From Agrococcus baldri (GTDB lineage: Bacteria; Actinomycetota; Actinomycetes; Actinomycetales; Microbacteriaceae), in the NCBI GenBank assembly GCA_900114805.1, contig FOZN01000001.1, forward strand, positions 248,001 through 312,000: DNA of 64,000 nucleotides. Reading direction: 5' to 3'. Both the position numbers and the translations under genes were made by a program. Numbering within the stretch: position 1 is the stretch's first letter; every line of letters begins with the position of its first letter. The notes under the pieces are model-generated. The model made no database searches. It saw nothing but the letters and a program-made list of their open reading frames with translations, and had not been told where the DNA came from. This document shows, one piece after another, positions 49,343-51,943 of the stretch.

Positions 49343-50266
49343 ATGAACAAGCGAATCATCCGCGGTACCGCGATCGCCGCTGTCGGCGCGCTCGCGCTGG
49401 CTGGCTGCTCGGCAGCCGGTGACGACCCGGAGGCGCCCGAGGGCGGCGCGACCGAGCAGCAGACCGAGCTCACGATCGGCGTCTTCAACGGCTGGCCCGA
49501 GGGCGAGGCCGCCTCGTTCCTGTGGGAGGCCATCCTGGAGGAGAAGGGCTACGACGTCGAGCTCGAGTACGCCGACGCCGGCCCCGTCTTCGCCGGTGTC
49601 GCCAGCGGCGACTACGACGTGGCGCTCGACGGCTGGCTGCCGACCACGCACGCTGACTACATGGAGGAGTTCGGCGAGGACATCGTCGACCTCGGCTCGT
49701 GGAACGACGATGCCGTGCTCACGCTCGCGGTCAACGAGGATGCCCCGATCACCTCGATCGAGGAGCTCGCCGACAACGCGGACGCGTTCGACAACCGCAT
49801 CGTCGGCATCGAGCCGGGCGCGGGCCTGACCGCCGCCACGCAGGACGCGGTCATCCCGACCTACGGCCTCGACGGCATGGAGTTCATCACCTCGTCGACG
49901 CCCGCGATGCTCGCGGAGCTCAGCTCGGCGGTCGACGCCGGCGAGAACATCGTCGTCACGCTGTGGCGCCCGCACTGGGCGTACGACGAGTTCCCGATCC
50001 GCGACCTCGAGGACCCCGAGGGCACGCTCGGCGCCGCCGAGGAGATCCACACGCTGGCCCGCACCGGCATCGAGGAGGACTTCCCGCAGGTCGCCGAGGC
50101 GCTGTCGAACTTCCGGATGGACTCGGAGCTGCTCTTCTCGCTCGAGAACGCGATGTTCAACAGCGACGCTGAGGCCAGCGACTACCCCGAGGTCGTCGCG
50201 ACCTGGATCGGCGAGAACCAGGAGTACGTCGACTCGCTGAGCGAGGGCATCGACCCCGTCGAGTAG
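49343..50266 (+). CDS. proX: Glycine betaine-binding lipoprotein
   Basis: 307-residue OpuAC/ProX-type lipoprotein with lipobox LAGC (Cys22). The mature domain has GVFNGWPEGEAASFLW near 45 and DVALDGWLPTTHADY near 91, with Trp residues that in relatives form the aromatic cage for trimethylammonium groups, and VVTLWRPHWAYDEF near 208. An AGAGAGGA ribosome binding site precedes the ATG. It completes the three-gene osmoprotectant importer. A strong terminator follows at 50284-50318. Confidence 0.93.
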   Translation: MNKRIIRGTAIAAVGALALAGCSAAGDDPEAPEGGATEQQTELTIGVFNGWPEGEAASFLWEAILEEKGYDVELEYADAGPVFAGVASGDYDVALDGWLPTTHADYMEEFGEDIVDLGSWNDDAVLTLAVNEDAPITSIEELADNADAFDNRIVGIEPGAGLTAATQDAVIPTYGLDGMEFITSSTPAMLAELSSAVDAGENIVVTLWRPHWAYDEFPIRDLEDPEGTLGAAEEIHTLARTGIEEDFPQVAEALSNFRMDSELLFSLENAMFNSDAEASDYPEVVATWIGENQEYVDSLSEGIDPVE

Positions 50267-50283: not shown

Positions 50284-50318
50284 GAGGGCCTCGCATCCAT
50301 CCCGGATGCGGGGCCCTC
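50284..50318 (+). terminator. Terminator of the glycine betaine operon
   Basis: GAGGGCCTCGCATCC (50284-50298) pairs with 50304-50318 with one G-U pair, giving a 15-bp stem and five-base loop, followed by TTC. The first base of the adjoining repeat element is its last base. Confidence 0.88.
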
Positions 50319-50405
50319 TTCGTAGGTCGAGGAGGCCGCGGGCGAAGCCCGCTTCGTAGGTCGAGGAGGCCGCGGGCGAAGCCCGTTGCCGTCACGAGAC
50401 CGGAG
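50318..50405 (-). repeat. GIY-YIG-associated repeats, left pair
   Basis: Two identical 34-base units (50318-50351 and 50352-50385) each carry CTTCGTAGGTCGAGGAGGCC then the hairpin CGGGC-GAA-GCCCG. They continue into TTGCCGTCACGAGACCGG. On the minus strand this reads CCGGTCTCGTGACGGCA, hairpin, GCGGCCTCCTCGACCTACGA. The TGA within GTCTCGTGACGG is the stop codon of the nuclease gene. Confidence 0.92.
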
Positions 50406-50712
50406 GCGGCTGACCGTCCCGTCTCTGCCTCGCAGCCCACGACCGCGATCCCGATCCCGGCAAATCGTCCGCTCGCCCCTCGATCAGCAGCTGCCGCTTC
50501 CGCCGGCCCCATCCCGGCACCTGCTTCTCGGCCGCGTACGCCTCGTCGATCCGCTCGAACCACTCGGCGTGCACGATCTGCACCGGCCGTCGGCGCTTCG
50601 TGTACTTCGCGCCGATGCCCGCGTTGTGCTCGGCGACGCGGCGTTCCGCATCCCAGGTGCGTCCCACGTAGTAGGAACCGTCTGCGCACGCGAGGATGTA
50701 CATGTACGGCAT
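50392..50712 (-). CDS. Small GIY-YIG nuclease (UPF0213/YhbQ-like)
   Basis: 106-residue single-domain GIY-YIG protein. The signature is MYILACADGSYYVGRT (residues 4-19), with Tyr5, Tyr16 and Gly18 of the GIY-YIG core, Arg24 in ERRVAEHN, the AKYTKRRRPVQIV strand and Glu near 62 in AYAAEKQVPGW as metal ligand. Such proteins cut DNA in homing and repair contexts, but this subgroup has no assigned function. The gene is bracketed by inverted pairs of hairpin repeats, and the left repeat provides its last codons and stop. The C-terminal 25 residues (Ser/Arg/Gln/Pro) are low complexity. Confidence 0.85.
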   Translation of the reverse strand: MPYMYILACADGSYYVGRTWDAERRVAEHNAGIGAKYTKRRRPVQIVHAEWFERIDEAYAAEKQVPGWGRRKRQLLIEGRADDLPGSGSRSWAARQRRDGQPPPVS

Positions 50713-50781
50713 CGCACGACAGTGACGGATGCGCGACGAGCGCGTCGGGCAGACGTTTGCGGCTGTGGAGAGCGAGCGGCG

Positions 50782-50897
50782 ACCACCGGTGTCGCAACGG
50801 CAGCGTCCTGCCGACGCGGCCGCCTCGACCTACGAGGGAACCACCGGTCTCGTGACGGCAGCGTCCTGCGGACGCGGCCTCCTCGACCTACGAGGGG
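50782..50897 (+). repeat. GIY-YIG-associated repeats, right pair
   Basis: Two tandem 58-base units, 50782-50839 and 50840-50897, differing at six positions. Each reads ACCACCGGT, CTCGTGACGGCA-like, hairpin CGTCC-TG-CGGACG, GCGGCCTCCTCGACCTACGAGGG. They match the minus-strand reading of the left pair outside the hairpin, so the nuclease gene lies between inverted repeats. The end of the second unit supplies the TAG stop of the neighbouring hydrolase gene. Confidence 0.92.
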
Positions 50898-51943
50898 TCG
50901 TGCGCCTCGATGTGCTGCTGCAGCAGGGTGCGGAAGCGATGCGGATCCTCCAGGTGCGGGGAGTGGCCGGCACCCTCGAACACGGCCTCCTGGTAGCTGC
51001 CGCCGTTCGCCGCGTACGCGTCGAGCACCGCGCGCGTCTGCGCGATCATCTGCTGCGGCGGCGCGGCCTCCTCCCCCGGCCAGCCCGGCACGATGCCGTG
51101 CTTGCCGAGCGTGTGGAAGTCGAAGAACGACTCGTCGCCGACGATCACGTCGTGCGCGCCGCGCACCCACAGGATGGCCGGCTTCTCCGCCACGTCGACG
51201 ATGCCCGTCAGGTCGAGGTGCTTCGCCGACATCGTGTTGAGGATGCCGCGGTCGCCGGCGGCGAAGCCGGGCCACGACTCCGTCGCGATCCCGTCGCCGG
51301 GGTAGTTGTCCTCGCCGGTCTTCGTCGACAGCATCGACTCGACCCAGAGGTCCTCCTGCTCGTCGCTGAACCCCGGCGCCACGTAGCTCGCGCGGTAGAC
51401 CGAGCGCGGGCTGGTCTGCTCGTCCGCGGAGGTGTCGCCGGCCGCGAGCCGCGCGACGAAGTCGGCATTGGCTCCCCCGCCGCCCGTGCCCGCCGCATCC
51501 GGCGTGCAGAGCGAGCCGTCGAGCCGGGTGCCGAAGCCCTGCGGGGGCACCGGCGCCTGCAGCGTCAGCGAGCGCACCAGATCGGGCCGGTCGAGCAGCA
51601 GCTGCATCACGACACCGCCGCCCATCGACCAGCCGACCACGTGCGCGCCCGAGACGCCCAGCGCATCCAGCACCGAGGCGACGTCGTCGGAGAAGTCGCG
51701 CAGCCCCCGCGTGGCGTCGACCGGCAGCGTCTCGCTGTCGCCGAAGCCACGCAGATCGATCGCGATCGTCGGCCGCGGCAGCGCCAGCATCAGCGGCTGC
51801 CAGAACAGCGACGACGACACGTTGCCGTGGATGAGCACGACCGGGGCGCCGGTGGCTCCCTCGGGCGTGCGCCGCAGGACGGATGCGCTGAGGCGGTCGG
51901 TCTGGACGACCTGCGCATCGATGCCGTCCAGGATCGTCGTCAT
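50888..51943 (-). CDS. Alpha/beta-hydrolase
   Basis: 351-residue alpha/beta-hydrolase. Oxyanion HGNVSSSLFW near 39, nucleophile elbow GWSMGG with Ser106, acid in LWVRGAHDVIVGDE near 262 and His in GAGHSPHLEDP near 328. A polar Gly/Asp-rich stretch near 145-170 looks like a lid. The substrate is unknown. It is the last gene of the hydroxybutyrate cluster, 46 bases after scoB, and may belong to that operon. The final residues DPS and the TAG stop come from the repeat unit at 50840-50897. Confidence 0.82.
   Translation of the reverse strand: MTTILDGIDAQVVQTDRLSASVLRRTPEGATGAPVVLIHGNVSSSLFWQPLMLALPRPTIAIDLRGFGDSETLPVDATRGLRDFSDDVASVLDALGVSGAHVVGWSMGGGVVMQLLLDRPDLVRSLTLQAPVPPQGFGTRLDGSLCTPDAAGTGGGGANADFVARLAAGDTSADEQTSPRSVYRASYVAPGFSDEQEDLWVESMLSTKTGEDNYPGDGIATESWPGFAAGDRGILNTMSAKHLDLTGIVDVAEKPAILWVRGAHDVIVGDESFFDFHTLGKHGIVPGWPGEEAAPPQQMIAQTRAVLDAYAANGGSYQEAVFEGAGHSPHLEDPHRFRTLLQQHIEAHDPS

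Follow-up and report, generated by a model that had tools for sequence, protein, structure and literature searches.

The window analysed here – 64,000 nucleotides of Agrococcus baldri contig FOZN01000001.1 – contains a small gene for a nuclease of the GIY-YIG superfamily that stands between two pairs of repetitive extragenic palindromes (REPs) in opposite orientation. Few repeats are as common in bacterial genomes as REPs and, to our knowledge, the REP-associated tyrosine transposase (RAYT) is the only dedicated REP enzyme known. The cassette described here, with minus-oriented REPs on the left of the gene and plus-oriented ones on the right, is probably a repeat system similar to that of RAYT but not homologous to it, with the GIY-YIG protein as a REP-processing nuclease. 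The evidence also leans towards a broader statement, which we make less firmly: that Bacteria at large have, besides RAYT and independent of it, a second class of REP-spreading enzymes in the GIY-YIG nucleases, one clade serving REPs of a TCG...CTC type and another the so-called CGTC REPs, including dRS3.

In such a system, the GIY-YIG nuclease, which has a single domain and lies between inverted copies of its cognate REP, would recognise this repeat in its folded form – in which variable stems enclose an unpaired TCG...CTC loop and a bulge, or, for the second clade, a CGTC-tagged hairpin is made – and nick beside it, after which repair or replication would copy REPs, and occasionally the whole cassette, to new sites. 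The same REP is found dispersed between genes, as single units or as inverted doublets. An initial annotation of the window, made from the sequence alone, had already read the locus as a nuclease gene framed by hairpin repeats and likened it to RAYT/REP systems with an unrelated enzyme class; the framing is supported by the results below, and the analogy holds. That the protein binds, cuts and copies REPs – in the annotation's wording, that it may recognise or spread them – is what we infer from those results.

Framing of the nuclease gene by repeats

On the left of the gene, two perfect head-to-tail copies of 34 bp, as first described, can be read from the sequence at 50318-50351 and 50352-50385; the first corresponds to the truncated REP unit of Table 1 and the second to the complete left unit. 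The pair on the right is equally real: its two copies, at 50782-50838 and 50840-50896, are 57 nucleotides long and 91% identical, at a spacing of 58. The opposite orientation of the two arms was correctly recognised, 50341-50406 and 50841-50906 being 80% complementary across 66 nucleotides. Complete units have the form GGTC-TCGTGACG-hairpin-CCTCCTC-GACC; the hairpins of the left and right units differ in sequence, and pairing is kept in both. The 3' end of the gene and the left complete unit share 10 bp, and the final base of the right complete unit lies inside the stop codon of the adjoining hydrolase gene.

Table 1. Features of the cassette and its immediate surroundings, in window coordinates
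Feature	Position	Strand	Remarks
Truncated REP unit, left outer	50320..50353	-	the first 34-bp tandem copy belongs to this unit
Complete REP unit, left inner	50359..50401	-	GGTC-TCGTGACG-hairpin-CCTCCTC-GACC; folded as DNA
GIY-YIG nuclease gene, 106 amino acids	50392..50712	-	Pfam PF01541 1.1e-15; AlphaFold2 pLDDT 86.6
Diverged REP unit, right inner	50788..50830	+	folded as DNA
Complete REP unit, right outer	50846..50888	+	folded as DNA
Hairpin resembling a transcription terminator, between OpuAC-type gene and cassette	50284..50319	.	read from the sequence, no terminator scan
Flanking gene, OpuAC-type substrate-binding protein (context)	49343..50266	+	Pfam PF04069 2.3e-60
Flanking gene, alpha/beta hydrolase (context)	50888..51943	-	Pfam PF00561 4.1e-22

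A 15-mer of the repeat, CTCCTCGACCTACGA, matches the window nine times with up to three mismatches (expected 2.74; maximum 7 in 100 shuffles), and four of these matches are the cassette units. Across the whole genome (2.90 Mb in 7 contigs), a pattern for the full unit finds seven matches, two of them in the window, and its reversed control none. The genome has two PF01541 genes, the cassette gene and one in a frame of 714 amino acids, taken as UvrC; the best named matches of the cassette protein come from Agrococcus. A separate REP array of the same genome (C7:406453-406673) consists of four head-to-tail units at 36-bp spacing followed by an inverted one, and neither of the two PF01541 genes lies there.

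The framing recurs well beyond the window. A search of 249 Microbacteriaceae genomes found 80 relatives of the GIY gene in 60 of them, and all 80 loci were read; a scan of named genomes gave 568 loci, of which the best 80 make up a multi-phylum set. One typed detector, with 4-bp stems, served for loci and controls alike. It found repeats on both sides of the gene at 51 of the 80 family loci and on at least one side at 60, the corresponding numbers for the multi-phylum loci being 44 and 68 of the best 80; at the loci that lie outside Actinomycetota by record title, they were 25 and 43 of 45. Random 300-bp windows from 20 stretches of GIY-positive family genomes had repeats on both sides in 6 of 4000 cases and on any side in 210, while windows about 1 kb off the GIY genes gave 0 of 159 for both sides and 15 of 159 for any unit. 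No unit was detected beside the UvrC-type GIY locus of the window genome. The initial annotation had staked its case on an association between repeats and GIY-YIG genes in other genomes, and the association is there.

Other ways of counting change the figures. A strict detector requiring a stem of five gave less, with both sides found at 23/80 and 27/80 loci and a density per kb of 2.41 near the genes, 0.28 far from them and 0.195 in random sequence; an earlier regular expression had found both sides at 53 of 80 loci (control, 14/4000). A motif-free comparison of flanks, in which 24 of 79 inverted and 29 of 79 direct matches lay above the null's 99th percentile, was set aside because its cross-locus null itself holds shared repeats. 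Chance or local duplication as the cause of the framing was ruled out by the shuffles, the reversed control and the random-window controls. Repeats of the TCG...CTC type occur in at least Actinomycetota, Bacteroidota, Chloroflexota, Cyanobacteria, Spirochaetota and Pseudomonadota, several of the examples coming from metagenome-assembled genomes.

At six of six loci picked for a check of gene context (L154, L161, L182, L203, L215 and L222, all outside Actinomycetota), the gene just downstream of GIY encodes a type I restriction specificity subunit (hsdS, PF01420 Methylase_S), and GIY cassettes may often lie inside restriction-modification operons. The position of these six loci just before hsdS genes could also be taken to mean that the gene is a passenger, which tolerates a place where REPs, moved by some other enzyme, insert near one another; the hot spots described below would agree with this. 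A passenger, however, would hardly be framed again and again across phyla, with two repeat superfamilies and two GIY clades, nor does the account sit well with a UvrC-type GIY locus that has no unit or with a genome that has no RAYT, and we regard it as very improbable.

Repeat structure, enzyme and turnover

The TCG...CTC repeats share a common plan: TCG and CTC enclose a core, in which an inner hairpin may or may not be present, and are themselves enclosed by the two matching halves of an outer stem, whose sequence is free. Its types are exemplified by GGTTTCGATACG-hairpin-CTACTCAACC and CCCTTCGACAGGCTCAGGG, as well as by GGTGGCTTCGGCTCCGCTCAGCCACC in Chryseobacterium and GGTTTCGAGAGCCTCAACC in Treponema. 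The outer and inner stems of the repeat covary. Among 30 distinct units of 35 nucleotides, gathered by their conserved letters with no pairing required, pairing is kept in 97.5% of the cells of a 12-pair structure (77.5% after shuffling), and the covariation score is 0.521 as against 0.156 in shuffles, with none of 500 as high and slid structures reaching at most 0.106 – all for a structure drawn from the very alignment on which it was scored. The number of pair types in the same units is not above that of shuffles (131 of 500 as high). Covariation extends to the inner loop, with T9-A28 in 25 units and G9-C28 in five; the collecting pattern preset G/T and A/C at these positions but left their linkage free. 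When the window units are folded by themselves as DNA, they come out only slightly more stable than shuffles (z -0.8 to -1.9), so that the structural case rests on covariation, which confirms the earlier remark that the hairpins change and yet stay paired.

The protein encoded between the repeats was correctly named as a GIY-YIG nuclease: PF01541 is its sole Pfam domain, the fold agrees, and the residues invariant among 22 aligned relatives include Y5, Y15, G17, R25, H29 and E62, of which the two tyrosines, the arginine, the histidine and the glutamate are what we take to be the GIY-YIG catalytic set. The solved structures nearest to the predicted fold are two from nuclear magnetic resonance (PDB 1zg2 and 1ywl) of UPF0213 proteins, which resemble the window protein in sequence and fold and bear no function name.

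Enzyme and repeat are linked in several ways. Taking four TCG/CTC types together (counts being summed over types, with a locus of two types counted twice), the nearest left unit has minus orientation in 91 of 113 cases and the nearest right unit plus orientation in 87 of 113. Where a genome has two or three GIY genes (15 genomes), the two flanks of a locus are at 28 of 35 loci more similar to one another than are any flanks paired across loci of that genome, so that most cassettes have a repeat of their own. On a tree of 181 GIY proteins (L119, L122 and L250 left out), the repeat type of the 141 labelled rows, with the other 40 uncounted, changes 18 times compared with 68.3 times after shuffling (0 of 200 as low), in a tree that has few columns and a long-branch warning and in which part of the signal follows phyla.

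The abundance of the repeat follows the gene as well. A pattern for one repeat type only (TCGAKACGN{4,34}CTMCTCRACC) was counted in 40 of the 60 GIY-positive and 40 of the 189 GIY-negative family genomes, chosen by hand: at least five copies are present in 30/40 of the former vs 5/40 of the latter (Fisher p = 2e-8, not corrected for kinship), and none in 4/40 vs 28/40. With the reversed control, no genome has more than one match, and the maximum in GIY-positive relatives is 359 matches. The repeats, in other words, are neither confined to the window nor equally common where the nuclease is missing, either of which would have counted against the initial annotation. Restriction to one type may explain the low counts of some GIY-positive genomes, the window's included. 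The RAYT-type domain Y1_Tnp (PF01797) was found in 2 of the 249 family genomes, in none of the 60 GIY-positive ones and not in the window genome; this rules out RAYT as the mobiliser in this family.

Within the genus Agrococcus, an orthologue of the hydrolase gene is found in 23 of 24 genomes. Four of the 23 loci hold a GIY gene between hydrolase and OpuAC gene, and in three of the four the GIY gene runs opposite to that of the window. The hydrolase has the OpuAC gene as its neighbour at 11/23 loci, and some of the 23 are cut by contig ends; inspection by eye of other hydrolase loci reveals repeats only, or a short spacer. A REP doublet elsewhere in the window genome (C6:12990-13098, 109 bp) is missing in one genome (G049), which has 32 bp instead between flanks 96% and 95% identical, and in another (G261), with 0 bp between alignable flanks; other species have different REP types at this site, and hot spots therefore exist. 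The comparison of empty sites proposed at the outset has in this way established presence and absence between species.

The finding that congeners may have or lack the gene at one locus, and may have it in either orientation, is compatible with a homing-type element as well, whose nuclease would cut REPs or intergenic sites in unoccupied alleles and leave recombination to copy the cassette, the dispersed REPs being remnants of decayed cassettes. GIY-YIG domains are typical of homing endonucleases, and three of four GIY proteins scanned have sub-cut-off matches to a group I intron endonuclease family (the window protein has none). Against this account, short REP doublets such as the one of 109 bp, of which several are found in family genomes, have no room for a gene, REP copies exceed genes by up to hundreds to one, and no intron or intein was seen; we consider it quite unlikely.

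The second clade and the weighing of the evidence

The CGTC REPs were defined by Di Nocera et al. in 2013 (PMC3733652), who name dRS3 of Neisseria as one of them and Azospirillum lipoferum and Neisseria as carriers, and who conclude that these REPs apparently have no transposase of their own; the word 'GIY' does not occur in the text. We read 24 plasmid loci, picked for organism variety from 55 and 34 matching records before their flanks were seen. CGTC REPs lie close to the gene at 14 of 17 loci of a second GIY clade (clade B), on both sides in at least 11 of the 14; the 17 leave out L250, a weak match with a broken frame, and two pairs of the plasmid loci (L252/L268 and L255/L270) are near-duplicates. 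Examples are CGTCATCCCCGCGAAGGCGGGGATCCA in Azospirillum lipoferum, CGTCATCCCAGGGCTTGACCCTGGGATCCA in Rhizobium and the dRS3-type CGTCATTCCCGCGAAAGCGGGAATCCA in Neisseria gonorrhoeae, and the remaining three loci (L251, L260 and L262) have related hairpins by eye. At L260 (1-1861, Planktothrix agardhii plasmid p1), the gene stands, as annotated, between an MmeI-type restriction enzyme and the DISARM gene drmA.

As background, the CGTC detector gave 37 matches for 400 kb of family DNA and 7 for 100 kb from two plasmids, two 50-kb stretches of clade-B plasmids holding 5 and 2 units. In the GIY tree, a branch with support 100 sets the 14 labelled CGTC rows apart from the rest. The clade-B repeats agree with the CGTC REP superfamily in their CGTC tag, stem of 8-9 bp, short loop (4-5 nucleotides in that superfamily) and CCA tail, unlike the window units, which are bulged TCG...CTC palindromes. 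If the GIY-YIG proteins of clade B do act on these repeats, they would be the partner enzyme that CGTC REPs have been missing since 2013.

A number of results weigh against the cassette as a REP-processing system. With the typed detector, no unit was found at 20/80 family loci and 12/80 multi-phylum loci; most of the 19 unit-free family loci inspected by eye bear further repeat variants, yet five (L065, L117, L118, L120 and L121) are without any repeat by eye. These five may be domesticated or decaying copies; in L118, L120 and L121, the tyrosine matching Y15, in the second motif, is replaced. Reverse orientation is found in 22/113 left and 26/113 right units, and the long and short REP types are only weakly clustered on the tree within the family (8 changes vs 11.8, the shuffled minimum being 8). 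Three plasmid loci (L253, L254 and L256, from Cupriavidus, Variovorax and Acidiphilium) have no CGTC unit, and no TCG/CTC type was seen there; they form a third GIY-YIG group with the motif YLLEC, a useful negative control. At the orthologous sites, no insertion could be resolved to the base and no target duplication was established, the species compared being too diverged for this.

The copy-number comparison, finally, used hand-picked genomes, several GIY-negative ones being small, and five genomes without the GIY gene are rich in REPs (G025, 110 copies; G037, 35; G040, 20; G045, 665; G057, 40). A profile search of 16 genomes, with no known positive included, found no cryptic GIY gene in the REP-rich GIY-negative ones; the profile alignment is the one that also served to find the multi-phylum loci. 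For four of the five, a sister species in the genus has a GIY gene – in the case of G045, two of them, G116 and G171. REPs therefore outlive the gene, or spread without it.

The persistence of REPs without the gene in 5/40 GIY-negative genomes is also what favours a role in host maintenance, in which the GIY-YIG protein would be a structure-specific repair enzyme, like Slx1, that trims REP cruciforms, while the REPs spread by other means and a tie of dose or expression places the gene among them. The only functionally studied protein among the top fold neighbours is indeed Slx1-Slx4, a branched-DNA nuclease, albeit as a weak match (E 0.02). Such a role, however, leaves unexplained why each cassette tends to have its own matching repeat pair (28/35) in a mostly fixed orientation, and why the gene is sporadic (60/249 genomes) and in several genomes present in two or three copies with different repeats; we hold it to be unlikely. 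A REP-processing nuclease remains the preferred reading.

Comparison with known systems

Free-standing GIY-YIG homing endonucleases are present sporadically and have the same catalytic fold as the window protein; unlike them, the cassette is framed by multi-copy palindromes and does not lie in or beside a single target gene. Slx1, apart from its weak similarity in fold, differs in working with a partner subunit, Slx4 (as stated in the accessible part of PMC8287910). Among the open-access literature matches listed, no paper links GIY-YIG genes with REPs, which makes the novelty of the link provisional: in the accessible part of PMC9465073, a GIY-YIG gene and RAYT are merely listed in one gene table, and the corresponding parts of PMC12306157 and PMC5082802 mention neither GIY nor nucleases.

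RAYT systems have one to a few gene copies, and their REPs often stand as inverted doublets. What the cassette has in common with the RAYT REPtron is a small nuclease gene with inverted copies of its cognate REP on both sides and further copies dispersed elsewhere, the REPs being imperfect, bulged palindromes present in many intergenic copies, often as inverted doublets. It is unlike it in the enzyme, which in RAYT is a Y1 HUH tyrosine enzyme (PF01797) and here a single-domain GIY-YIG protein of unrelated fold. RAYT REPs have a GTAG-like tag, and the other strand of the units described here shows GAGTAG or GAGGAG before the hairpin, which may or may not be the same tag. Because the HUH domain that defines the RAYT/REP system (TnpA_REP, REPtron), as described for example in E. 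coli and Stenotrophomonas (PMC8266576, accessible part), is absent, the cassette would work like a REPtron without being a member of that group.

If this is correct, the widespread bacterial GIY-YIG genes now named by fold only would gain a function, and the question of which enzyme serves the CGTC and the TCG...CTC REPs could be put to the test with a protein of about 95 amino acids and short oligonucleotides. Two unrelated nucleases, the HUH enzyme of RAYT and the GIY-YIG enzyme described here, would then have reached the same repeat-spreading lifestyle.
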